Positions 4,082 through 30,094 of a stretch of DNA of 30,425 bases are shown here, one piece after another. The DNA is from a virus, in IMG/VR virus record IMGVR_UViG_3300032304_000929, positions 1 through 30,425 of that record. One strand, given 5' to 3'. Made by a program: the position numbers and the translations under genes. Numbering within the stretch: position 1 is the first letter of the stretch; each line of letters begins with the position of its first letter. The notes below the pieces were generated by a model that was given only the letters and a program-made list of their open reading frames with translations, did no database searches and was not told where the DNA came from.

Positions 4082-4469
4082 ATCTCAAGAGGTATTTGGT
4101 AACGATTCCCAATAGGAATCCGATTATGAAGAGCCATATATTAGGTCGTGTTTTCCTTTGACTCTTATATTTTGCGACTTCTATTTTTTGAATTTGTCGG
4201 ATTGTATCTCTCGTTAATTTATATAGGATTTTTTTCTCCCATCTTGTCTTGGGAATGTAATGCGTTTTCCACATGATGACCGTATCTTTCTCAGTGATAT
4301 ACTTACGCCAAACAATAGTATCATTCACGATCACCGGAAAGGAATCAACCGATGTGATGCGGATGGTATCAGCTACCTCCTCACATTTGTATCCTTTCTT
4401 TATTGCCTTGTTGAGATGGTGCTCAGCTGAACACGATACCAGGATAAAAAGAATTAAGATATATCTCAT
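4062..4469 (-). CDS. Unimolecular spanin (lipoprotein with C-terminal TM)
   Basis: The 135-residue protein begins MRYILILFILVSC, a short lipoprotein signal with lipobox LVSC (Cys13 would be acylated). It ends with a hydrophobic helix at about 109-127 (NIWLFIIGFLLGIVTKYLL) followed by basic residues. An outer-membrane lipid anchor plus an inner-membrane segment joined by a periplasmic region is the layout of a u-spanin, as in phage T1 gp11, which fuses inner and outer membranes at the last step of lysis. The middle looks beta-rich with a basic helical part. It directly follows holin and amidase, with a 4-base overlap to the amidase stop. The role is assigned from topology and context, not from sequence similarity. 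Confidence 0.75.
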   Translation of the reverse strand: MRYILILFILVSCSAEHHLNKAIKKGYKCEEVADTIRITSVDSFPVIVNDTIVWRKYITEKDTVIMWKTHYIPKTRWEKKILYKLTRDTIRQIQKIEVAKYKSQRKTRPNIWLFIIGFLLGIVTKYLLRYAKKAL

Positions 4470-7737: not shown

Positions 7738-7772
7738 ATATATATATTATGAAAACTTGGAAAAATGTTTAT

Positions 7773-8365: not shown

Positions 8366-8392
8366 AAAAAAAAGGGGAGTATTTCATCCCCT
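8366..8392 (-). terminator. Intrinsic terminator after the major capsid gene
   Basis: On the minus strand AGGGGA (8392 to 8387), an eight-base loop and TCCCCT, then eight T (8373 to 8366). It lies 17 bases beyond the capsid stop codon. Since the next gene has no clear Bacteroidota promoter of its own in the 65-bp gap, it probably attenuates rather than stops late transcription. Confidence 0.78.
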
Positions 8393-8409
8393 CAAGGATA
8401 TTTTGTTAA

Positions 8410-9342
8410 TTATGCAGCTGAGTTGTAGAATACAATCTCTCCACCGTTAACGTGAGTGAATCCAACTTTCATGTTTGCACGAGTACGGATAACCGGCTCA
8501 GCAACTGTATCAGCTAAATTGATAGCACGCAATGCTTTACCATCTCCTTCAGCATCGAAAGAATACAAAAGATTTCCTTTCAACGTAGCAACGATTTTGG
8601 AAGTTGTTCCCATTCCTGGACACATTACCATTTTGATTCCCAAATAAGAGAAATCTAATGCTTGAGTCAAGTTGGCTTGAGTATTCGCAGCAGCAACCGC
8701 AGCACGATATGCAGTAGCTACCGGTGTTGATACATAGATTCTCAAATCCTCTTGGTTAGCAATAACCGCAGCAGGAATAGCAGCGTATACCAATGCTAAT
8801 TTAGCAAGTACATTTGATGGAGTGATTGCAACTGGAGATGCGATATCAATTACCGCTGCATCAGCAAGTAAAGATTTCACATAACCATCAGTTAATGCAA
8901 GTGCAGGAACCAATGAAGTTGTATCACCTAACCAACGTAATTTTTCGATATTCTCAGCAATTGTTTTTGCCATTTCTCCCCAATAGAAATCCATGAAAGA
9001 TGCAACAGTGAAATCACCATTAGATCCTTTTGTCATTTGCAATGAAACAAATGATTGCTCCAATTGGAATTGACAGATCTCTGCCATGGCTGATAATCCT
9101 GACACGTCTACCTCTACCGAAGAAAGTTCATCCTCTGAAGAATTCCATCCACAGTTCTCTGCTTGTAAAACTTGACCAAATGTTACGGTCGAAATTTTTG
9201 TCTTATATTTTACTCCAGGTAAAGTACGGTAGTTGTCAACCGTTTCCTCTTGCAAATATGCACGAGAATAGAATGCCTCACTGTTTGCTTGCAATAACGC
9301 TGATGCGTCAATATCCAAGTCGAATCTTAATTTTCTGCTCAT
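8410..9342 (-). CDS. Major capsid protein
   Basis: A 310-residue protein with HK97-fold hallmarks as they appear in Bacteroidota phages: an N-terminal arm (MSRKLRFDLDIDASALLQAN), a beta region with E-loop-like sequence (YKTKISTVTFGQVLQAENCGW), a spine helix (FMDFYWGEMAKTIAENIEKLRWLGD) and a beta/alanine-rich A-domain (AVAAANTQANLTQALDFSYLGIKMVMCPGM). It ends with the strand-rich GKALRAINLADTVAEPVIRTRANMKVGF. It follows the protease gene directly, and a terminator comes next, consistent with a highly expressed structural gene. Translation starts behind an A-rich leader (AACAACAAAACAAAATG). Confidence 0.88.
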   Translation of the reverse strand: MSRKLRFDLDIDASALLQANSEAFYSRAYLQEETVDNYRTLPGVKYKTKISTVTFGQVLQAENCGWNSSEDELSSVEVDVSGLSAMAEICQFQLEQSFVSLQMTKGSNGDFTVASFMDFYWGEMAKTIAENIEKLRWLGDTTSLVPALALTDGYVKSLLADAAVIDIASPVAITPSNVLAKLALVYAAIPAAVIANQEDLRIYVSTPVATAYRAAVAAANTQANLTQALDFSYLGIKMVMCPGMGTTSKIVATLKGNLLYSFDAEGDGKALRAINLADTVAEPVIRTRANMKVGFTHVNGGEIVFYNSAA

Positions 9343-9361: not shown

Positions 9362-10327
9362 TTAATTATTAGAATTTAAAAATTTACTTACTGCACTGAA
9401 TTTGTCATGCATCGACATTTTAGTTTTGTTGTCGCTCATTTCCACTTCATCCTCAGTTTCTCCAACCATCATCTCTTCCATTTGATTTCTCAAATCAGCG
9501 ATTAATGCGATGATTGCTTTCTCTCTCTCCTCAAGTAAAGGTGTAACGATTGCAAGGATAGCCTCTGAATCCAATGCTGGATCAATTGCCATTTCTTCCT
9601 CAACTGCATCCTCTACAATTGGAGCTTCCTCTTCAACTACTGTTTCCTCCAATGCAATTTCTTCCATTGCCTCTTCAATTGGTGCATCCTTAATCTCAAT
9701 GATTTCTCCATCTACAACAACGTAGATTTTGCCATCGATTAAGTGCTCCCCATCAGGTAATTTGTTCATGTTATATTTATTTAATTGATTACTTAATTTC
9801 AATCCCAAGAATCCCTCGATTGAGAATCCCACCTGGTCATTGGCAACCAATTCAGCATAATACTCTTTATCAGTTACCTGAGCGGTTACCATTAATGTAC
9901 CTTTTGGAACTTCAATACCGAATGTTGAATATGATTTGTCTTCCTTTGGTTGGTCCACAATCCATGTTTCGAGGATATATGCCGGAACTGTTTTGGATGT
10001 ATCATGCTCCAGGTTGAATAGGTCACGATTTCGAAGGTCGCTCATGAACTTCTCATGAATCTTTGCGATGGTTTCTTCAGTGAAGGACACATAATAATCT
10101 CCCTCCTTATCATCTCTTCGATATATCTCCATCGGTATCATTGCCGGTGCAGTGATTCGATACTTCAAATCATCAGCGAAAATCATTATCTCAGCTTGAT
10201 TGAATGCCATCCCTTTCACCTTGATTGCAGGTTTTGAGGTGAATGCAATTTGTTCAATACCTAAATCTTCCCCATCGGAATACTCAGGATCAATTGTTAT
10301 TTTGTAAATTGGCAAATCATTGGTCAT
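9362..10327 (-). CDS. Capsid maturation protease with scaffold-like tail (XkdF-like)
   Basis: From ATG at 10327 the protein has 321 residues. Its first 190 resemble the XkdF-type phage serine protease: IAFTSKPAIKVKGMAF near the start, then NLEHDTSKTVPAYILETWIVD (candidate catalytic His) and NDQVGFSIEGFLGLKL (candidate Ser). The last 130 residues are strongly acidic (long Glu/Val/Ala stretch) and then helical (ILAIVTPLLEEREKAIIALIADL), as expected of an internal scaffold that the protease later removes. An open frame continues upstream to 10678, but that part lies opposite the 10371-10925 gene and looks non-coding, so 10327 is chosen. The major capsid gene follows 19 bases later. Confidence 0.85.
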   Translation of the reverse strand: MTNDLPIYKITIDPEYSDGEDLGIEQIAFTSKPAIKVKGMAFNQAEIMIFADDLKYRITAPAMIPMEIYRRDDKEGDYYVSFTEETIAKIHEKFMSDLRNRDLFNLEHDTSKTVPAYILETWIVDQPKEDKSYSTFGIEVPKGTLMVTAQVTDKEYYAELVANDQVGFSIEGFLGLKLSNQLNKYNMNKLPDGEHLIDGKIYVVVDGEIIEIKDAPIEEAMEEIALEETVVEEEAPIVEDAVEEEMAIDPALDSEAILAIVTPLLEEREKAIIALIADLRNQMEEMMVGETEDEVEMSDNKTKMSMHDKFSAVSKFLNSNN

Positions 10328-10346
10328 GTATATATTAAAAAAATTG

Positions 10347-10354
10347 TATTTTTG
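10347..10354 (+). promoter_or_regulatory. Plus-strand -7 promoter element for the reversed gene pair
   Basis: TATTTTTG fits TAnnTTTG exactly and ends 16 bases before the ATG at 10371. A possible -33 element is poor (TTGG at 10320-10323, 23-bp spacer). It lies in the 43-bp gap between the divergent protease and chaperone genes, the only place where a rightward promoter would be needed. Confidence 0.55.
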
Positions 10355-10370
10355 TTCATAAAACGTACTT

Positions 10371-10925
10371 ATGATAAAAATTTTTGAAAGGGATATTCCC
10401 AACAATATGGATGAATTGACCATTGAACAATTCGAAAAGGTAACTGAAATTACCAACAACAATGAACTTGATAACATTGATCGGTACATCAAGATTTTTG
10501 AATACTTCGGTGTGAAGGAATCCGAGTGGGATGATAATGACATTGAATTATCGGAGTTTGTTGAAATAGTGAAGGAATTTAATTCCAATAAATATGAGAG
10601 AAAAGAGCCGGTTGAGTCATTTGAATTAGGAGGATACACATATGAAGCGAAGATGAAGCTCTCAGTCAAGGATACCAAAATGATTGAAAAGTTGATTGGT
10701 CGTAAATCTCACAATTGGATTAGTGATTTGATGGCTCTCATGTTCAAACGTACGGACCTCAGCCAAACGGAACACTACACTGAAGCTCATTTGAAGCACA
10801 AATCAAAGCTATTCAAAGAACTGAAAGCTGAAATTGCAATTCCTTATCTTATATTCGTAACTGAAAAAATCGCATCTCATGCTCAATCTCAATCTTCCGA
10901 ATCAGTGGAGCCAAGTAACGATTGA
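10371..10925 (+). CDS. Probable tail assembly chaperone, first paralogue (plus strand)
   Basis: A 184-residue acidic, helical protein. Residues 14-25 (DELTIEQFEKVT) and the following IELSEF block at about 63-68 recur in the next gene, so the two are diverged tandem duplicates over most of their length. The C-terminal part (WISDLMALMFKRT, then LFKELKAEIAIPYLIFVTEKI) also has its counterpart there. Two small helical acidic proteins between head/tail genes and the tape measure are normally the tail assembly chaperones (lambda G/GT analogues), so this role is inferred from position and composition. It is unusual in lying on the opposite strand to all its neighbours. It overlaps the next gene by 47 bases. 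Confidence 0.7.
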   Translation: MIKIFERDIPNNMDELTIEQFEKVTEITNNNELDNIDRYIKIFEYFGVKESEWDDNDIELSEFVEIVKEFNSNKYERKEPVESFELGGYTYEAKMKLSVKDTKMIEKLIGRKSHNWISDLMALMFKRTDLSQTEHYTEAHLKHKSKLFKELKAEIAIPYLIFVTEKIASHAQSQSSESVEPSND

Positions 10926-11610
10926 ACAATTCATTGAGATAAAGTCATTAAGCATGGATGATGGCACATTGCAGTACAATACGGATGTGCTATCCATCCT
11001 CTCCGATTTACCAATTGAGGAATTTGATGATATAGAACTCGATGAACTTCAAAAATTTACAAAACAAGTTCAATGGATGTACTCGGAGCCATCAAAGAGA
11101 TATCAACATCAGCTCGGTGAATTCAAGCTCAAGCCATTTGTTGACATCACTCTTGGTGAGTTTATCACATTGGAGGGATTCGTCACTGATGACTACATCA
11201 AGAATCTTCGGAATATATGTGCGATTCTATACCGGAAGACATCCACTGATGAATGGGGGAATGTTATCACTGAGCCATACAAATTCAAATCAACTGAGCG
11301 TGTGCATCTCTTCGATGACTATCCAATCACCTCAGTATTCGGATTGATACCTGAGTACCTTCAATTCAGACAATCATTCCTGGATAGCCATGCCAATCTA
11401 ATGACTGAATCATTTGAGGATGATGAGCAAATTGACGATCCGGAAGAGCGAAAAGAAAAACAAGAGGAAATTAAATCTTCCAAATGGGGATGGGAAAAAA
11501 TGATATGGACCATGTGTAATGGTGACCTCTCAAAATTCGATGCAATTACTGATACAAAACTTGTATTGATTTTTAACTTCCTTGCAATGAGAAAAGAGTT
11601 GGAAATTTAG
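10879..11610 (+). CDS. Probable tail assembly chaperone, second paralogue (plus strand)
   Basis: A 243-residue protein starting MLNLNLPNQWSQVTIEQF, which matches DELTIEQF in the preceding gene. Further shared landmarks are the acidic FDDIELDELQKF block (about residues 53-64) and the ICAILYRKT segment (about 115-123), equivalent to LMALMFKRT in the first protein. It adds a charged linker (EDDEQIDDPEERKEKQEE) and a final WGWEKMIWTMCNGDLSKF region. Because it repeats the N-terminus of gene one, it looks like a gene with its own start, not a frameshift extension of the lambda GT kind. Its stop overlaps the stop of the convergent gene by two bases, leaving no room for a terminator. Confidence 0.7.
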   Translation: MLNLNLPNQWSQVTIEQFIEIKSLSMDDGTLQYNTDVLSILSDLPIEEFDDIELDELQKFTKQVQWMYSEPSKRYQHQLGEFKLKPFVDITLGEFITLEGFVTDDYIKNLRNICAILYRKTSTDEWGNVITEPYKFKSTERVHLFDDYPITSVFGLIPEYLQFRQSFLDSHANLMTESFEDDEQIDDPEERKEKQEEIKSSKWGWEKMIWTMCNGDLSKFDAITDTKLVLIFNFLAMRKELEI

Positions 11611-12032
11611 TAATCAAGTGAGTAATTGAAATCACCGAATAAAGGATTGAAATCATATATCACTTTCACTTTTTTTCTAAGCAATCCACCAAGCTCCAGG
11701 ATGGGGAATGTTTGAGCCAATTTTGAAACGTATTGACCATACATCTCGGATATCAATCCTTGTTGCTCAAGTGCAGTGTTGAATTTTTTGACCAAATGGA
11801 AGGGAACAATTGTCGCAGTACCGTTGTTCAGGTATCCGAAGTAATATGCAGCAAGTATTTCAATGCGAAGATTTCCTTCAGTTGATACCTTAGCATTGAT
11901 ACGGATGGAATCATACAAAGTGCGTGTATCAATCAAGTTCTCATCCTTGATAATTTTCTTCAATACATTGGCAACCTTCCTCCTGGTTGGATAAAGGATG
12001 TTGAATTCTCCGTTTTTCTTATAAACTCCCAT
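11607..12032 (-). CDS. Minor structural (head-tail or tail completion) protein, 141 aa
   Basis: Residues 1-60 include a helix (RRKVANVLKKIIKDENLIDTRTLYDSI) followed by beta strands (RINAKVSTEGNLRIEILAAYYFGYLNNG). The phrase DTRTLYDSI followed by AYYFGYLNNGT resembles the HK97 gp10-type family, in which a helix plus small beta barrel adapts the head-tail interface. The position next to a tail-terminator-like gene and the tape measure agrees. Its leader is AATATATAGTATG. The gene is convergent with the plus-strand chaperone pair. Confidence 0.6.
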   Translation of the reverse strand: MGVYKKNGEFNILYPTRRKVANVLKKIIKDENLIDTRTLYDSIRINAKVSTEGNLRIEILAAYYFGYLNNGTATIVPFHLVKKFNTALEQQGLISEMYGQYVSKLAQTFPILELGGLLRKKVKVIYDFNPLFGDFNYSLDY

Positions 12033-12046
12033 ACTATATATTAATA

Positions 12047-12496
12047 TTAATTACCAATTTGTTCAGGAATTTGGCAATCGGTCCATGAAGGAAGTACAAA
12101 TGTAATTGTCATCAACCATCCTGCTGCGTAATCCAATAGGTCATTGTTTAATGGGATAAAGGTAGGCAATCCTTCCACATCAAAATCAGTATCAGTCAAT
12201 GAAAATGTGTAATTAAGATAAAGGTCATTCAGGATTTGTTGACAATCGGATAGAATTGTGGTGATATTTGCACGATCCTTTTGGATGATGTCAAAGCAAT
12301 ATATCTCCAATGTGAACAAATTTACGTTTTCACTTGGAATGGCATCCACCGGGACGATATACACAAGAGGATACTTCTCATCCTTAGTTGCGAAGTTGAA
12401 TAACTGTTCCTTGAAATCAGTACCTACCTTTTTAACTTGTAAATGTGCGGTATAAAAATCGGTAATTTCACCGATTAACGCTTGATAACTTATCAT
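12047..12496 (-). CDS. Probable tail terminator-like protein, 149 aa
   Basis: An alpha/beta protein: an N-terminal helix (YQALIGEITDFYTAHLQV), strands (KYPLVYIVPVDAI, VNLFTLEIYCFD), a helix (ITTILSDCQQILNDLYLNY) and a final strand (YAAGWLMTITFVLPSWTDCQIP). This order fits the small tail terminator/completion fold (lambda gpU-like) encoded just before the tape measure in many siphoviruses. The assignment rests on fold impression and position. It overlaps the tape measure stop/start by 4 bases. Confidence 0.55.
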   Translation of the reverse strand: MISYQALIGEITDFYTAHLQVKKVGTDFKEQLFNFATKDEKYPLVYIVPVDAIPSENVNLFTLEIYCFDIIQKDRANITTILSDCQQILNDLYLNYTFSLTDTDFDVEGLPTFIPLNNDLLDYAAGWLMTITFVLPSWTDCQIPEQIGN

Positions 12497-14559
12497 AATT
12501 CTGCTGATTTTTGGATTTTTGCTACTTTGTTTTGAGTGGATGTTATTTCGGTTTCACTCACAACCGCAGTCACAGTGATATTACTTGATTCAGTTGATCC
12601 GACATTGTTTTGGTCATTGCCTTGACCGAATAAATTACCAGGTGTGAATGATGGAACTGATACCGATTCTGCTCCACCTCCACCTCCTGCATCCGATGAG
12701 GATGGTGCGGATGTCGATGTGAATTGTGTTGCCGATATCTTTGCGATGTTGGATGCGGATGTTGCGATTGTTGCAGCAAGATTGGCAATACCAACGGGAT
12801 TCGGTACCACTCCGATTGCTAATGGTGCAGCTGCTAATGATGCAGTGACCGCCTTACCAGCATCCACAACGGCACCGGCTAATTGCATTGCCTTGTTGAA
12901 CTTAAATTGTTTCTTTGCAAGAGCTTCCTCTTCCTTACTTCCTTTCTTCACATTCTTCATTTTCGCTGCGAATGCGATATCACCAAGAGCTTGGATTGAT
13001 TTAACACTATCCTCAGCAATGCTCAATGCATCATTAGCGGTTTTGAGTTGTGCATCTCTTTTCTTTTTCTCTTCCTCTTCCGCTATTTTTATTCTTTCTT
13101 CAGCTGCCTTTTTTTCAATCTCAGTTTTATCCAATTGGAATTGATCATTGAGAGCTTTTTTCAAGGCATTATTATTCTCTGCTGCTGCCAATTCTTTCTC
13201 TAATTCCTGCTCAAGTTGGAATATTTTAAATTCACTTTCCGATAAAGTAAGTTCTTGGAATCTTACAAATCTTGCTTCCGCTTCCGCTTTCTTTTTATCC
13301 TCTGCTTCTTTTTCTTTTTTCTTTTTTTCCTCATCAGCATCATCCGCAACTTTTTTTAACTTAGTTTGAAAATCAGCTTCAGCTTTTATTTGTAAATCTT
13401 GACTTTGTTTTGTGAGAGTTTCTTTTTCTTTTGCAGTTAGCTTCTCATTCTTTTTAATATCCTCAATTTGTCTACGATATTTCTCTTGAATCTCTTGCAA
13501 TTCTCTCTTGGTTTCATCAGCAACCAATGCGATTCGATTGTCAATGATTGCTCTTTCCGCTGCTAATCTATTCGATGCATTCTCTTTTCTTTTATCCGCT
13601 GCTGCTTTTGCTGCTGCTGCTGCTGCTGCTGCATCCGCATTGGCATCATTGATTGCTAATAATTGACGATCGGCTCTTCCTTGAATGATAACCGCCTTTT
13701 CATCAGCAATTTGTTTTTTTAATGTTTTAAGTTTTTCTTTATCAGCACTCTTTCCAAGTGCTTTCTCAGCATTCAATGCTGCTTGTGCTGAGTTGTATCT
13801 TTCTCTTGCAAATAAACTCTTTGACATGGATGCCTGAACTTCCATTTTGTATGTGTCTTGACCTTGTGCCTTGAGTATTGCAATTTGATTTGAATACATT
13901 TGACTTTGAATGGCTTCTCTTTCCTTGGAAGATTCTTGGACTTTATTATTTGCCTCAACCATTTTTGCTGCATTCTCTTCAGCAGCATATTGAGTCAATC
14001 CCAACCAATCGGTCAACTCTTTAAATCCATTAATCAACGCATTCACTGGAGCCATTAGTGCTGATATTACATCATCAAGAACTCCAAATTGTTTTAAAAC
14101 AAGTCCAACCGCAACAATGATTGCACTGATAAATGCAACAATTCGGAACAAAGGATTTGCGATGATGACCTTACCTAAGCTGATAAATGACTTACCTACA
14201 TTTCCAATGGTTGAAGCAAATCCTTTAAATTGTTTAGTTAAATCTTCAGGCTTTAAAGATTTAATACTTTGATTTAGGTTAGCTGATTCTTTTGCTGCCT
14301 TGGCAAAATCAAGTTCAGTAACCGCCATTGATAAACCATCAAAAGATGCTCTTGCTTGGTCAAGATTGCTCCCCTTTTTAAATTCGTTTATTTGACTATT
14401 AACCGAAGCGAGTTTTTTCTGAAGTTCTCCCGCCCTATCCGCTAAAGCAGCAATTTGCTCCGGATCCATTGCAGTAACCATTTGGTCTTTAATCGACCTT
14501 AGTTCAGCTTTGATTTGAGCAATTCCTCCGAGTTTTAAATCAACTGTTATTTCATTCAT
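12493..14559 (-). CDS. Tail tape measure protein
   Basis: A 688-residue protein with the expected plan: an N-terminal helical part (KLGGIAQIKAELRSIKDQM and following), a strongly hydrophobic segment at about 131-155 (VIIANPLFRIVAFISAIIVAVG), then a very long, highly charged coiled coil (about 260-510, with runs of Ala, Lys, Glu and Gln). A small-residue tail rich in Ala, Ser and Gly follows. It sits between the tail terminator-like gene and the tail-tip genes. By the usual rule of about 1.5 angstrom of tail per residue, a tail near 100 nm is expected. Low-complexity GCx-type repeats encode an alanine run at about 310-318 (13600-13640), and the reverse frame there is an artefact of this composition. 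Confidence 0.85.
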   Translation of the reverse strand: MNEITVDLKLGGIAQIKAELRSIKDQMVTAMDPEQIAALADRAGELQKKLASVNSQINEFKKGSNLDQARASFDGLSMAVTELDFAKAAKESANLNQSIKSLKPEDLTKQFKGFASTIGNVGKSFISLGKVIIANPLFRIVAFISAIIVAVGLVLKQFGVLDDVISALMAPVNALINGFKELTDWLGLTQYAAEENAAKMVEANNKVQESSKEREAIQSQMYSNQIAILKAQGQDTYKMEVQASMSKSLFARERYNSAQAALNAEKALGKSADKEKLKTLKKQIADEKAVIIQGRADRQLLAINDANADAAAAAAAAKAAADKRKENASNRLAAERAIIDNRIALVADETKRELQEIQEKYRRQIEDIKKNEKLTAKEKETLTKQSQDLQIKAEADFQTKLKKVADDADEEKKKKEKEAEDKKKAEAEARFVRFQELTLSESEFKIFQLEQELEKELAAAENNNALKKALNDQFQLDKTEIEKKAAEERIKIAEEEEKKKRDAQLKTANDALSIAEDSVKSIQALGDIAFAAKMKNVKKGSKEEEALAKKQFKFNKAMQLAGAVVDAGKAVTASLAAAPLAIGVVPNPVGIANLAATIATSASNIAKISATQFTSTSAPSSSDAGGGGGAESVSVPSFTPGNLFGQGNDQNNVGSTESSNITVTAVVSETEITSTQNKVAKIQKSAEL

Positions 14560-20558: not shown

Positions 20559-20603
20559 TTTGTAGATTGTTTATATATATATTAAAAAAAATAGCTCTTT
20601 TGT

Positions 20604-21755
20604 TTAGAAGGCGAAGTATGAATCATCGGTATAGTATTCCTTGCGGATGTAAGTACCGGCATATCTCACCGCATCCATGGCATCATCGAAGAGCTTCACC
20701 GGCTCATCGGTAATGAAGTCACCAACTTTCTTCCACTTATAGTTCTCATACTCTTTCTTTATCCTGGAGTCATCCTCACAAAATACTCCGAATGTTTTGA
20801 TATTGTCAATACCTTTCTTCACAACCTTGTTTGCATTTTGAACATCGTATCCGGCATTGTTCATCTCCGCGATTATCTCAGGTCTTGCGTAATCGGCAAC
20901 GATGGTGATGTGCTTCTCAATGCCTAATGACTCACACCGCTCGATGAGGTTGGTTGTGGTGAGGTAGCTCTCATATATCACCGGCTCGATGTAGATGTCA
21001 TCCTCACACCAATATACTCGCATGAGTGCAGTGGGGTGATTGTAACCGAAATCGATTCCGTATACATAGTTCACGAATCTTGCAGGTCGATGCTTCACGA
21101 ATGTCCAATTGGAATAGATGTTGCTCTTGCTGATTGCCTTCTCTCCCAGTGCGTAGATTTGATACAGTGCCTCATCCGTTCGCTTGAGGTCTTCTATTTG
21201 TCTACGGATGGAATCAGGGAGGAATGGATTGTCACGATACGTTGACTTGATGAGGATGCTCTCCTCCTTTGGTAGCTCATACAACCAGGATGCTGATTCA
21301 CTTGGATTGTAGTCAAATATGAGCTTCCATTCAGTTCTCATGTTGAGCTGAGTGAAGTCATCGTAAAAAAGCTCATTGGCTTCATTACACCATGCGAGGT
21401 CACGTTTTCTTCCTCTTATCTTTTGCTCATCATCCACTGAGAAGAATTCAACGATGCTCCCATTTGGGAAGGTATAGATGTGCTCGGACTTATTGTGAGA
21501 GTTTACATCGTACAAATCCATCTCCTTCATAATCTCAAGGAAATCTCGCATGACTGTTGCTCTGAGTGCCGGGAACGTTTTTCTGATAATAGAGGTAACC
21601 TTCCCCCTATTTTGGAGAGAGTAAACAATTATCATTTGACAAAGGGAATATGTCTTAGATGACCTACTTCCTCCCTCATTAATTATAAAACGTACATCCT
21701 TATCCTGGAGAGCTGAGTAGTTCTTCTCGAATATTACGGTACTATTTATCTCCAT
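20604..21755 (-). CDS. terL: Terminase large subunit
   Basis: A 383-residue DNA-packaging motor. The ATPase domain has Walker A GGSRSSKT (28-35), Walker B with the catalytic Glu in DLAWCNEAN (119-127, E125), and a coupling motif FDYNPSES (about 147-154). The nuclease domain has the acidic set GIDFGYNHPTA (D235), VADYARPE (D288) and FDDAMDAVRYAG (D358 or D361), which cuts concatemers into genome units. Length and motif spelling match the PBSX/SPP1-like terminase group. It would join the small subunit and the portal during packaging. Its start overlaps the small subunit by 14 bases. Confidence 0.95.
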   Translation of the reverse strand: MEINSTVIFEKNYSALQDKDVRFIINEGGSRSSKTYSLCQMIIVYSLQNRGKVTSIIRKTFPALRATVMRDFLEIMKEMDLYDVNSHNKSEHIYTFPNGSIVEFFSVDDEQKIRGRKRDLAWCNEANELFYDDFTQLNMRTEWKLIFDYNPSESASWLYELPKEESILIKSTYRDNPFLPDSIRRQIEDLKRTDEALYQIYALGEKAISKSNIYSNWTFVKHRPARFVNYVYGIDFGYNHPTALMRVYWCEDDIYIEPVIYESYLTTTNLIERCESLGIEKHITIVADYARPEIIAEMNNAGYDVQNANKVVKKGIDNIKTFGVFCEDDSRIKKEYENYKWKKVGDFITDEPVKLFDDAMDAVRYAGTYIRKEYYTDDSYFAF

Positions 21756-22170: not shown

Positions 22171-22436
22171 TATTCCTCTCCTTTCCCTGGTGTTGGTTTT
22201 ACTCTTCTTTTTCTCTTTGGAATCGGTTTTGCACTCACTTCCTGCTCGATGCCCTCATATTTGATTGGCTCCGGTGCGGTTGTTGTTTCTGATTCCTGCT
22301 CAAAGAGATATCCCATTCCTATTGAAACGTAATATTTGTACTTTGATACATCTATATTATCAACAACAACGATAATGTTTCGAACTGTTGTGTGCTTGAC
22401 AATAGTTTTTCCTTTATATTCCTCTTTTATTCTCAT
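22170..22436 (-). CDS. Hypothetical protein, 88 aa, before the terminase genes
   Basis: Unrecognised. The first half is beta-rich (GKTIVKHTTVRNIIVVVDNID, KYKYYVSIGMGYLFE). The second half is a Glu/Pro/Lys-rich tail ending in KRKRRVKPTPGKGEE, which suggests DNA or RNA contact. It shares one base with the terminase small subunit and overlaps the upstream gene by 23 bases, so it is translated with them. Similar small proteins precede terminases in Bacteroidota phages, but their job is unknown. Confidence 0.62.
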   Translation of the reverse strand: MRIKEEYKGKTIVKHTTVRNIIVVVDNIDVSKYKYYVSIGMGYLFEQESETTTAPEPIKYEGIEQEVSAKPIPKRKRRVKPTPGKGEE

Positions 22437-22953
22437 CTTTTATCTTATTTAGATCGTGTTTAATATCTCGAATATAGTAGTGAGCTGATGTCACTGGAAT
22501 GTTGAAGTATTTCGCCATTGACCTTGCGGTGTTGTATCCTTTATCGTAATATGCCTCAAAGATTATGACCTTGATTCGGTCTTTCATCTCTCTTTTGTAT
22601 ATCTCAATGCATGATTTTTGGTCATGGTATTTCTTCTCTTCTAGTATCTTGTGATTCAAATCTTCCTCATCATCGCAGTCATTAGGAATATCAAGCTCAT
22701 TTGCGTTGACTCTCTCCTCGATATGACTGATTGAAGTTGACCAAAGTATTTGTTTCTTAATCGTGTTCAATAAGTAGCTCTTGACCTTATTCTCATCCCT
22801 GGTGTCATCATCGATATCCGCTACATAAAGATATGAATTGTTGATGACCACATCGGCAATCATGTTGGCTTTGAATTTGGTGAGGAAATACTCAGTGTAG
22901 CTCCTCACCTCATCATAATTCCTTGAGATATATCGGTCAAGTGTTTGCTTCAT
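22414..22953 (-). CDS. Sigma-like / helix-turn-helix regulator
   Basis: A 179-residue helical protein organised like a small sigma-type factor: an N-terminal helical part (RDENKVKSYLLNTIKKQILWSTS, about 52-76), an acidic linker (IPNDCDDEED), and a C-terminal region-4-like helix-turn-helix at about 130-170 (YDKGYNTARSMAKYFNIPVTSAHYYIRDIKHDL). Proteins of this kind sit just ahead of the terminase genes in Bacteroidota phages. It is a good candidate for switching on late genes, which lack a recognisable TAnnTTTG promoter here. Activity as a sigma factor is inferred. The -10 binding residues of true sigma region 2 are not evident. Confidence 0.62.
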   Translation of the reverse strand: MKQTLDRYISRNYDEVRSYTEYFLTKFKANMIADVVINNSYLYVADIDDDTRDENKVKSYLLNTIKKQILWSTSISHIEERVNANELDIPNDCDDEEDLNHKILEEKKYHDQKSCIEIYKREMKDRIKVIIFEAYYDKGYNTARSMAKYFNIPVTSAHYYIRDIKHDLNKIKDENKRGI

Positions 22954-23751: not shown

Positions 23752-23974
23752 AATACTTAAAAAATTTGATGTAAAATTCCTCATTCACTGGATGACCTTT
23801 CAAGAATCTCCATAACTGAAGATAAGTGATTCCCATATCTTCAGCGATATGTGCTAATTTGTATCTCTTGGATACCCGTGACCTCACCTCTCTATCGATG
23901 AAGTCACGAATGGTTTCCCCATCAGAAAGGTGAATCGTCAAAGCTCTCACTTGCCACTGGTGTTGATTGAACAT
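23741..23974 (-). CDS. Helix-turn-helix DNA-binding protein
   Basis: The C-terminal two-thirds form a helix-turn-helix: KRYKLAHIAEDMGITYLQLWRFLKGHPVNEEF, in which GITYLQLWRFL is the recognition helix, as in Cro/CI-type or XRE-like repressors. The start is uncertain. ATG at 23974 gives 77 residues and overlaps the upstream gene by 53 bases, and a TTG at 23941 would give 66. The ATG at 24016 overlaps still further and looks unlikely. A regulator inside the replication-accessory operon is plausible, with unknown targets. Confidence 0.6.
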   Translation of the reverse strand: MFNQHQWQVRALTIHLSDGETIRDFIDREVRSRVSKRYKLAHIAEDMGITYLQLWRFLKGHPVNEEFYIKFFKYYER

Positions 23975-24224
23975 TCCATACATCCAAAGTATTATAATAC
24001 TTCCCATTGTACTCACGACCTCTGAGATTAAATTTCACGGTGATGTCGATACCAGGTGAATAGTTATCAATCAATTTGCACTTGTCTTGAGCTAGTTGGA
24101 AGATGACATCCTGAGGATACTCCCCATTTGGTACGGTTAGGACAAACATTCTCACTGAGAATTTGTCGCTGATTTGCTTGATTGGCTCAATTACTTTGAT
24201 TGTGCCGGTTACTGTTAATTCCAT
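23922..24224 (-). CDS. DUF3127-type OB-fold protein with SSB-like acidic tip
   Basis: A 100-residue beta protein matching the DUF3127 pattern: MELTVTGTIKVIEPIKQISDKFSVRMFVLTV, then PQDVIFQLAQDKCKLIDNYSPGIDITVKFNLRGREYNGKYYNTLDVW, an OB-fold known in Bacteroidota. It ends FDDSPF, like the acidic tip (DFDDDIPF) by which bacterial SSB recruits partner proteins. It probably coats single-stranded DNA during replication and annealing, with the ERF protein encoded nearby. Its stop lies inside the following gene. Confidence 0.72.
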   Translation of the reverse strand: MELTVTGTIKVIEPIKQISDKFSVRMFVLTVPNGEYPQDVIFQLAQDKCKLIDNYSPGIDITVKFNLRGREYNGKYYNTLDVWNVQSTPVASESFDDSPF

Positions 24225-24257
24225 ATTTGATTTGTTTTGTTACTATTTGGTAAGTTA

Positions 24258-24455
24258 CTAAAATGCACCTTTGAACACCCATGCAGCGAACAACGTCCCC
24301 AAGGTCATCAGTAATGCGACTGCGGATAAGAATCCGATGATTGCTAGTGTTTTCTCTTTGATGATTTTCTTCTCGTATCTTTTCACTTGTGGTTTTACAA
24401 CCGTTTCAATAATGTGTTCTGCCTTTCGGTTAAAGTCATCAATGTCTATCTTCAT
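24258..24455 (-). CDS. Small single-pass membrane protein, 65 aa
   Basis: A charged amphipathic N-terminal helix (DDFNRKAEHIIETVVKPQVKRYEKK) is followed by one membrane segment (ALAIIGFLSAVALLMTLGTLFAAWV-type, about 36-60) and a short tail. It starts in the first copy of the 19-bp start repeat, overlapping the preceding gene by 4 bases. Topology suits a small host-membrane factor. No family recognised. Confidence 0.65.
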   Translation of the reverse strand: MKIDIDDFNRKAEHIIETVVKPQVKRYEKKIIKEKTLAIIGFLSAVALLMTLGTLFAAWVFKGAF

Positions 24456-24470
24456 TGTTCTTGTTGTTTA
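24452..24470 (-). repeat. 19-bp start-codon repeat, copy 1
   Basis: TCATTGTTCTTGTTGTTTA, which on the minus strand reads TAAACAACAAGAACAATGA with the ATG of the 24258-24455 gene inside. Identical copies lie at 25234-25252 and 25587-25605. A partial copy without the start codon (TCTTGTTGTTTA) lies at 24591-24602. Confidence 0.9.
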
Positions 24471-24754
24471 AGATATTTAAATAAATTATGTTCTTCTTGT
24501 TCTTCTTGTTCCCGTTGTTTAGTTAAAAAAATCTGAGCTTCATCCCTTGTGTTGTAAGATACTTCACCTTCTTCATCAAACTCTTCAAATTCTTGTTGTT
24601 TAAATAGTTCAAATAAATTAGTACCACGAGCATTTCTACTTGTTGCAAAATGAAATGTAATAAATGGTAAAATGATTAATATTTGTGTGTATTGATATTT
24701 TATTCCAAGTGCTATTTGCCATTCAAAATATATACTAAATCTGTACTCAAACAT
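24452..24754 (-). CDS. Hypothetical protein with a membrane segment and Glu/Gln-rich tail, 100 aa
   Basis: Residues 1-35 are hydrophobic-aromatic (FEWQIALGIKYQYTQILIILPFITFHFA) and could be one membrane segment. The rest is a polar tail with a repeated unit: NLFELFKQQEFEEF (about 46-59) and NLFKYLKQQEQ at the end. The repeat reflects two similar DNA copies (near 24591-24619 and 24459-24488), so the tail seems to have grown by local duplication. Function unknown. Confidence 0.6.
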   Translation of the reverse strand: MFEYRFSIYFEWQIALGIKYQYTQILIILPFITFHFATSRNARGTNLFELFKQQEFEEFDEEGEVSYNTRDEAQIFLTKQREQEEQEEHNLFKYLKQQEQ

Positions 24755-27489: not shown

Positions 27490-27707
27490 AGCTTTTTTAT
27501 TTCATTTGTAACATCAATGCAAAATGCAATCTCTTTAACATTTTTTGCTGGTGATTCATATAGTATATCAAGCATTTCACCAACTGCAATCAATGCACAA
27601 TTTTTTATTCTTGAATTTAATAAATCCTCATTGTCTGTTAAATCAATTAATTCTTGGGCAAATAATGTTCTTAATTCTTTTGCTTTTTCTATTGCTTTTG
27701 GATTCAT
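27486..27707 (-). CDS. Hypothetical protein, 73 aa
   Basis: An all-helical small protein (KAIEKAKELRTLFAQELIDL, CALIAVGEMLDILYES). It is coupled to both neighbours by 4-base overlaps and is more AT-rich than they are. No family can be named. A role in replication is suggested only by position. Confidence 0.65.
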   Translation of the reverse strand: MNPKAIEKAKELRTLFAQELIDLTDNEDLLNSRIKNCALIAVGEMLDILYESPAKNVKEIAFCIDVTNEIKKL

Positions 27708-30094
27708 ATCTCCTTTGCTTTATCGTTTAACTCATCCCAAATATCATCCGGATCACTTGGTGTTTTATCGGTCCTTCCGAATTCAATCCATCTTCGATTG
27801 TTTGTTTTATTCTCAGTGATTTGATGACCATGATAATGTCCAAAGATACTCAACCATTGAGAGAATTTCTTTTTGCTCAGTTTGGCATAATCGGTGTACT
27901 CATTAGTGAAAGCCTCATGAAGCTCGTCTTTGTATAACCGTACATTCAAAGGAAGATTCCCATCATTTGACCAATCATAAAACTCAAAACACGTTTCCTT
28001 TATAAATTTACGCACATCCAGGTTGGTGAACTCATGAGATACCAATCCATTCTTGAGGTAATATTGGCAACATTGAATCATGAAGTTGTCAAACATAATC
28101 CACTGCTCATCATTCCAATCATCAAATAACATATGACCAAACTCATCCAATGGTGATCGTGTGTGACCAAAATAGTTGCTCATCTCCACCTCGAACTTCC
28201 TTCTCTCAAATGAGCCACCCACTCCACCAATTGTGTAGTTGGTAGTTATGATAATTTTGGGAGATTTGTTCACTGGTATCTTGATGGCATCCTGCCCTTT
28301 GTACTCCAATGTAATTCCTTCAGTAATCAATGAGAAGAGATTCTCAAAGTTGAAGTTCTTTTTCACATCATCAAACACCAGGAGCTGAGTATCGGTTGAA
28401 ACTGTTTGATAAGGGAATCCCTTGGTGAATTCAAATGTCTTTCCATCGATTGATGCTACCTTTTTTAACTTGGCTAATGCATTCCAAAATAATCCCTTTC
28501 CACTTCCTCCATTCGGATTCTCCGATATGGTTTCATCGTTGAATATTATTGCCTTATTACTCGCTGAGGTCTTGTATGAATGCATTAAATATCCAATCAC
28601 CGACTTGAATGAGTTGTACTTCGCTGAATCTTTACCACTTACCAACCATAAGAATGTTCTAAACTCACTTTTATGGTGATCACTAGCAATATATTCTCGG
28701 TCAATTATCTGCCTCTTCCATACATATCCATCCAGGTCAATGTACTCATGTTTAAATATCCCTTGCTTGGTGATTTCCACTGCACAATTCCGATAATATA
28801 GATAACATTTATCCGCAGTATCCTCCATCATCTCAACCTGAGCACTGTCTAACATCGAAAGGAATTCGGATGTGAAGTATTTGGTAGCACCTGCCATCAA
28901 ATCATACGGTTGGAATCCAATCTCTTCCCTTGACAATAGAGAGCTGAGGGTGAAATCCTTGATTCTCTTCTCATTGGTTTCCTCGATTAGATTCTGCTCC
29001 TTCTTAATGAATGAGTATGTATTTGAATCAGCAGGAAAGTATTTAAAAAAGTTGTTTTGTTGTAGCCAAAACTTGTATTGATGGATGCTGAGTTGAATTC
29101 GATTCTGATTGTTGTAAGTCCAAAAGTCCTCAATGTTTCCGGTTTCTTTGATGGCATCAACGCACTTCTCAACCTCATCTTGAGTAAACTCCGGAAGTAT
29201 CTTGATGATATCGTTTGTCTTTTTACCTGCTCGAATGTGTTTTTCAATCTTCGCCCTAGATGTATTATCTTCGAAGTACCTGGTCCCGAATTGAGAGGTC
29301 TTGGAATATGCTGATTTGATTATCTTTCTAATCTCATTCTCTTTCCCTCCTTCATCAAAGCGAAGCATCACATTCTCGCATTCAGTTTTCTGAATACCGA
29401 AGTCATTGAATGCAGCTGCAAGTTTGAATAGGTTGTTATTCTTCTCACCTGGCACCATTCCATACTTCCGTTCCCACCATTTCATCAAGTTTTCAATGAT
29501 ACGGTTGTCGGACTTGATTGGAATCATCACATCCATTGAGCCAATTTCCTCAATCTCCGGCTCTTCAAGTTGAGTCCAAATGATTGAATCTTGATTGATG
29601 TAAATATTTGGATCGTATGACTCAAAACAAAAGCGGTCAAGATTACTCCCTGAACTATCCCAATAGTCCGAATCAAAGTAAGTTTTCAAGGCATCAAAAT
29701 ATCCTTTGAAATCTCCCTCAGTTGGAATCTTGACCAATGCCTTCACTCCTTTTCCGCTTGGTGATATCCATGCACTGAAAACATAGTTGTTGAACATCAA
29801 AGAATCCTTGAATTGAATTGCCTCAGCAGTATGGCTCATGTTGTCAAAGTCCAATATCATCAATCCGGACCTTTGTTCGATACCTTTCACTGAGCGACTC
29901 TTGAAAGTCCCATTGAAGCAAACTCCAGGAAGCTGATTCTTGTATTGTTTTTGCTCATCCTTAGTTGCACAAGCTCTGATTTGCTCAACCAATTCCTTGG
30001 ACTTACCATCTCGAATTCTTTCAAGACAATATAGAGCTGATTTGTTGAATGGATTTGTGGTATCCGTTACCTTCTTAAAAATTGATACGATCAT
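27704..30094 (-). CDS. Primase-helicase: BT4734/VirE_N-like primase with SF3 helicase
   Basis: A 796-residue replication protein. Residues 1-180 match the BT4734/VirE N-terminal domain of Bacteroidota (TNPFNKSALYCLERIRDGKSKEL, GIEQRSGLMILDFDNM, ISPSGKGVKALVKIP), an archaeo-eukaryotic primase-like domain. The C-terminal half is a D5/SF3-type helicase: Walker A NGGSGKG near 529-534, Walker B LLVFDDV near 571-577, the sensor KIIITTNY near 608-615 and an arginine segment GSFERRKFE. It should unwind and prime DNA. It is the first gene after the promoter and structured leader, next to the candidate origin. Domain order agrees with phage DNA-replication proteins. Confidence 0.88.
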   Translation of the reverse strand: MIVSIFKKVTDTTNPFNKSALYCLERIRDGKSKELVEQIRACATKDEQKQYKNQLPGVCFNGTFKSRSVKGIEQRSGLMILDFDNMSHTAEAIQFKDSLMFNNYVFSAWISPSGKGVKALVKIPTEGDFKGYFDALKTYFDSDYWDSSGSNLDRFCFESYDPNIYINQDSIIWTQLEEPEIEEIGSMDVMIPIKSDNRIIENLMKWWERKYGMVPGEKNNNLFKLAAAFNDFGIQKTECENVMLRFDEGGKENEIRKIIKSAYSKTSQFGTRYFEDNTSRAKIEKHIRAGKKTNDIIKILPEFTQDEVEKCVDAIKETGNIEDFWTYNNQNRIQLSIHQYKFWLQQNNFFKYFPADSNTYSFIKKEQNLIEETNEKRIKDFTLSSLLSREEIGFQPYDLMAGATKYFTSEFLSMLDSAQVEMMEDTADKCYLYYRNCAVEITKQGIFKHEYIDLDGYVWKRQIIDREYIASDHHKSEFRTFLWLVSGKDSAKYNSFKSVIGYLMHSYKTSASNKAIIFNDETISENPNGGSGKGLFWNALAKLKKVASIDGKTFEFTKGFPYQTVSTDTQLLVFDDVKKNFNFENLFSLITEGITLEYKGQDAIKIPVNKSPKIIITTNYTIGGVGGSFERRKFEVEMSNYFGHTRSPLDEFGHMLFDDWNDEQWIMFDNFMIQCCQYYLKNGLVSHEFTNLDVRKFIKETCFEFYDWSNDGNLPLNVRLYKDELHEAFTNEYTDYAKLSKKKFSQWLSIFGHYHGHQITENKTNNRRWIEFGRTDKTPSDPDDIWDELNDKAKEI

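Follow-up and report, generated by a model that had tools for sequence, protein, structure and literature searches.

In long-tailed phages, the tail assembly chaperone genes normally lie between those of the major tail protein and the tape measure and are co-directional with them, and a conserved frameshift usually sets the chaperone dose. The hallmark of the lambda-type chaperones is a pair of products, one short and one long, connected by a -1 slip (PMC10274946). In T4-like phages, Vladimirov et al. (2022) are said to have described tail assembly chaperones made by a mechanism other than frameshifting, a precedent for chaperone forms that do without it. Programmed frameshifting is common, but not universal, among these proteins (PMC10274946). 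A regulatory parallel comes from plasmid pLS20, in which a conjugation switch with overlapping divergent promoters has been experimentally shown (PMC4207663). Among phages, Nonlabens phages P12024L/S (Inhavirus) have the same order protease-capsid-tail tube-portal as the virus described here and similar early genes (Erf, exonuclease, and DUF3127). No flipped chaperone genes were found in the literature searched.

The window, i.e., the whole stretch of DNA analyzed, is a 30.4-kb virus record (IMGVR_UViG_3300032304_000929), from a large group of uncultured freshwater phages, probably with Bacteroidota as hosts. All its genes with a family match (Pfam and PHROGs) are on the minus strand, namely, primase/helicase, Erf, exonuclease, terminase, tape measure, prohead protease, capsid, portal, and endolysin; the capsid and tail-tube roles were assigned partly by position. 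Two overlapping genes run rightward, g1 (positions 10371 to 10925, 184 amino acids) and g2 (10879 to 11610, 243 amino acids). From its open reading frame (ORF), relatives, dN/dS, and structural model, g1 is a probable short (G-like) tail assembly chaperone, and g2, by ORF, relatives, dN/dS, and hhalign, its probable long (GT-like) paralogue, longer by an extra C-terminal domain with a KWGW motif. They share 47 nt and sit between the divergent, leftward gene of an XkdF-like prohead protease (9362 to 10327; Pfam PF14550, E value of 4.5e-10) and the convergent, leftward gene of an HK97 gp10-like neck or tail-completion protein (11607 to 12032), whose matches are weak (Pfam PF04883, E value of 0.027; phrog_5, E value of 0.021). 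Also on the minus strand are the probable major capsid protein (8410 to 9342), assigned by phrog_1623 (virion structural protein, E value of 1.2e-20) and position, and the tape measure protein (12493 to 14559; phrog_9483, E value of 4.9e-8). The stop codon of g2 (TAG, 11608 to 11610) overlaps that of the opposing neck gene (TTA, 11607 to 11609), and no rightward terminator-like site was detected 3' of g2 within the scanned region. All this anatomy had been described in an earlier sequence-only reading of the window: the overlapping rightward pair, the leftward orientation of every other recognized gene (which holds for each gene with a family match), and the overlapping stops without a terminator.

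Scans of IMG/VR retrieved relatives whose identity ranged between about 90% and about 36%, with 126 distinct relatives for g1 (up to locus L191) and 219 for g2. Both are real genes under purifying selection, with a dN/dS of about 0.11 for g1 (mean dN of 0.089 and mean dS of 0.81) and of about 0.10 for g2 (mean dN of 0.075 and mean dS of 0.74). Across the 219 distinct g2 relatives, g1 and g2 were on the same strand, and every scorable neighbor (protease, capsid, or neck) was on the opposite one in all 219. As these loci had been retrieved via g1 and g2 themselves, a control scan was run via the protease. Among its 80 best matches, all 78 contigs with room for the pair carried an antiparallel g1, 74 of them also with g2, and the remaining two contigs end within 90 bases; relatives with both genes absent or broken were sought, and none was found. 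The tape measure gene, by comparison, varies by clade, being found on one or the other side of the block (left of the portal in L113 to L159, right of the neck in the window and most of L160 to L262). The neighborhood is thus mobile, while the flipped pair is fixed. The sequence-only reading had placed the pair exactly where tail assembly chaperones belong, which is not supported as worded, because the co-directional placement typical of these genes is replaced in 219/219 sequences by an opposite-strand position beside the protease and the neck, and the pair stays there when the tape measure changes place. Some relatives have an extra small gene between the rightward promoter box (see below) and g1 (L036, positions 4181 to 4459; also L115, L119, L136, and L141), so that the cassette seems able to carry cargo. 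No relatives of g1 or g2 were found by tblastn in cultured phage records, and none was confirmed in host genomes. Elsewhere in the window, when G001 to G006 and G008 were compared, the primase (27704 to 30094) was 97 to 99% identical in two relatives and 38% in the others, and the terminase was 95 to 98% identical in most, a contrast that we read as module exchange.

The pair is preceded by the sequence TATTTTTG (10347 to 10354, plus strand), a TAnnTTTG box already spotted in the sequence-only reading, which by its conservation is the putative -7 box of a g1-g2 promoter of the Bacteroidota housekeeping type. In Flavobacterium johnsoniae, the -7 consensus is TAHHTTTG, and transcription starts 4 to 5 nt downstream (PMC6847099). 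There are about 40 occurrences of TAnnTTTG in the window, so a single box means little, and its weight comes from conservation: of 142 distinct sequences preceding g1, 132 have it (13.5 expected), mostly 20 to 25 nt from the g1 start. The free positions were TA, CC, TT, AA, AT, TC, CT, or CA, and never included G. When the count was extended to the whole gap to the protease, and thereby to relatives in which an extra small gene precedes g1, 118 of the 120 distinct divergent regions had TAHHTTTG. The box upstream of other genes was rare or absent (protease, 0; tail tube, 0; capsid, 2; portal, 1). A TTTG is found 23 to 25 nt from the g1 box, compared to about 19 to 21 nt for a -33 element, and its bases fall in protease codons; even in F. 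johnsoniae, the -33 element is a weak one (PMC6847099). E. coli-type promoters were below chance in the region. In the genomes of six relatives, where we surveyed noncoding upstream regions within 130 nt of a gene start, the box recurred besides g1 only before the primase (5/6 relatives), apart from a copy just after terL that was found in five relatives and is absent from the window. This distribution suggests that the g1-g2 cassette has an early-type promoter inside the late region. Another box, TATCTTTG, with an upstream TTTTGCA, is visible at about position 2882 (minus strand) in the gap alignment of several relatives; it follows a terminator-like hairpin and stands at the head of the gene cluster at the left end.

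The leftward genes have a different signal, a bipartite element of the form TGAACAAA-N12/13-TTAATATATA, of which the window has exactly three copies, all on the minus strand (0.01 expected). One copy, with a 12-nt spacer, precedes the protease (10329 to 10358), the second precedes the neck gene (12035 to 12065), and the third, with TAAACAAA as its first half, lies just after terL (20576 to 20606); a degenerate copy is found before a small gene upstream of the portal (7741 to 7769, minus strand). In the six full relatives, the element was at the equivalent places wherever the place itself was matched in the stretches examined, and a clade at 54 to 59% identity keeps it and has one more, about 2.6 kb beyond that of the protease (L437, L439, and L440). 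In the L036-type clade, the protease and the neck gene have instead a different motif in common, TTAACCAAAA-N-TACTT, and this concerted change suggests a common trans-acting factor. Altogether, the leftward element looks like a candidate late promoter. In the literature searched, we found nothing on late promoters of Flavobacterium phages or, more widely, of phages of Bacteroidota. Two intrinsic-terminator-like hairpins on the minus strand, one after the capsid gene (8372 to 8393) and one after the gene next to it (about 7799 to 7773), are conserved in relatives, consistent with several leftward units. The second hairpin shows paired base changes among relatives. Just upstream of the terminase, a 179-amino-acid protein with a helix-turn-helix (HTH)-like C terminus (22414 to 22953, minus strand), found conserved at 68 loci, is a candidate for the late transcription factor, although we take it as a lead only. 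A sigma factor identity for this ORF was discarded after profile comparison with P12024L gp35 (Sigma70_r2) failed.

The gap between g1 and the protease is only 43 nt long and holds both the rightward box and the leftward element. The complement of TTTGTTCA, i.e., the TTTG of the -7 box and the next four bases, is TGAACAAA in 41/41 distinct window-type regions, and the AACAAA of the protease element is the complement of TTTGTT at the g1 box. Among 13 distinct footprints of positions 10328 to 10362, only 5 of the 35 positions vary (10339, 10340, 10344, 10349, and 10350). All five belong to the spacer between the halves of the leftward element, and 10349 and 10350 are also the free positions of TAnnTTTG, which is the pattern that two superimposed elements would predict. 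In other clades, the box and the leftward element are present without identical shared bases.

The sequence-only reading had proposed that chaperone and structural gene expression might exclude each other or be timed by the collision of their transcripts. Presumably, two polymerases would be unable to use one site together, which places the exclusion better at the divergent promoters than at colliding transcripts. Since a promoter-like element stands before the protease unit itself, leftward transcripts could be made without passing through g1-g2; antisense read-through from the neck gene into g2 is possible because no terminator separates them. Thus, g1-g2 would be held opposite the structural genes and driven by a promoter that the main RNA polymerase of the host can read, so that this polymerase would make the chaperones first. 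Once the late factor appeared, it would occupy the overlapping site, start transcription of protease and capsid, and shut the chaperone promoter, and run-on late transcripts from the neck element would add antisense RNA. The resemblance to pLS20 lies in two promoters that face apart and have DNA in common, but the conjugation switch was established by experiment, whereas early/late exclusion in the phage is deduced from the sequence. We assign a probability of roughly 50% to the main reading, a chaperone pair encoded as two overlapping genes with overlapping divergent early and late promoters, its regulatory steps being inferred. That a timing switch by base-sharing promoters, rather than frameshifting, sets the chaperone dose and explains the locked reverse orientation in hundreds of phages is put forward only tentatively. 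The anatomy would be identical if the pair were chaperones with a reversed promoter and no switch, the divergent promoters working concurrently, the overlap reflecting compactness, and the flip being an old accident that became fixed. The separation of box and leftward element in the L036-type clade fits such an arrangement, as it indicates that overlap is not essential, but none of the 219 sequences shows a return to the common orientation, even though the tape measure moves, and the sharing of bases is found without exception in the 41 window-type regions. We consider concurrent promoters rather doubtful.

The genes g1 and g2 had been described as mutually similar in the sequence-only reading, and the similarity is genuine but distant, with 21% identity and a blastp E value of 7e-4, reaching a probability of 92% and an E value of 6.7e-7 over 172 columns when profiles were compared; they are, by this measure, remote paralogues. 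Their AlphaFold models (mean pLDDT of 87 for g1 and 82 for g2) matched largely one common set of uncharacterized viral proteins with a probability of 1.0, including a protein of Nonlabens phage P12024S and, more weakly, one of Flavobacterium phage 6H, and named chaperones among viral models matched weakly (E value of about 0.1). Pfam, PHROGs, and PDB sequence searches gave no family name for either protein, and the fold of g1 compared to the solved HK97 chaperone (gp13, 2ob9) was at noise level (Foldseek E value of 2.3, probability of 0.07).

A clue comes from P12024L, where gp40 has the g1/g2 fold and, at CTTTTTTTTTA, overlaps with an ORF in the -1 frame of which gp41 is a part. These two genes (L192, positions 23946 to 24640) are annotated as hypothetical proteins; the run of nine T residues, together with the -1 frame, suggests a programmed frameshift of the tail-assembly-chaperone type that the annotation lacks. 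The g2 profile scored 13.3 bits against the -1 fusion, compared to 7.9 for the unshifted and 8.5 for the +1 version, and at most 5.5 bits in 2,000 shuffles. With hhalign, g2 aligned along the length of the fusion, including the C-terminal KWGW region (E value of 1.4e-5), and the g1 profile found no match in gp40. Taken together with the lambda-type signature, this match makes g1 the putative short form and g2 the putative long form, encoded as two genes. The proposed identity is thus probable through the P12024L pair and not through similarity to solved chaperones; resting on a remote match to a predicted -1 frameshift pair, it is likely, not proven. A frameshift linking g1 and g2 was rejected, as both are complete genes and their frame offset is not conserved across clades. 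Flavobacterium phage 6H gp10 (L193, positions 10352 to 10927), a fold relative of g1/g2 with C-terminal-like pieces in two other frames downstream, was also left out of the evidence, since joining these pieces needs two shifts; the split could be either frameshifting or a sequence error.

Compared to lambda gpG/gpGT and its frameshifted equivalents, g1 and g2 are alike in being short and long related products with a similar size ratio, the long form with an extra C-terminal domain, located with tail and neck genes, and in having a remote relative (P12024L gp40/gp41) with a -1 slippery-run arrangement. They differ in being two separate paralogous genes without a conserved frameshift, on the opposite strand and with their own host-type promoter, and there is no detectable sequence match to the lambda or HK97 chaperones or, for g1, fold match to that of HK97. 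In P12024L/S, on the other hand, gp40/gp41 are co-directional with the structural genes, after terL, with an apparent -1 frameshift. A host-type box resembling that of the primase would also suit other early proteins, for example, a host-takeover or regulatory pair read from an early-type promoter in the late region, and the lack of a named family match and the noise-level fold match to the solved chaperone speak for such a role; the fixed position between protease and neck makes it unlikely, as does the distant similarity of g2, C-terminal domain included, to a gene pair with a -1 frameshift. Similarly improbable is that the leftward TGAACAAA...TTAATATATA element serves to start translation, leaving no promoter overlap, since its near-constant distance of 10 to 12 nt from the protease and neck start codons and the initiation favored by A-rich leaders in Bacteroidota (PMC6847099) are countered by a bipartite structure with fixed spacing, by its presence before only three units and absence before the capsid, tail-tube, portal, and tape measure genes, by the greater distance, in the window, of the post-terL copy from the start codon, and by its change in concert in another clade.

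Under the chaperone reading, this freshwater lineage, abundant and uncultured, seems to have exchanged the frameshift for a duplicated and reversed gene under a promoter of its own. The locus would also be an example, open to testing, of two promoters that use the same bases, and the leftward element provides a candidate late promoter for phages of Bacteroidota. The many viral proteins of the g1/g2 fold that are now called "uncharacterized" would likewise acquire a likely role.
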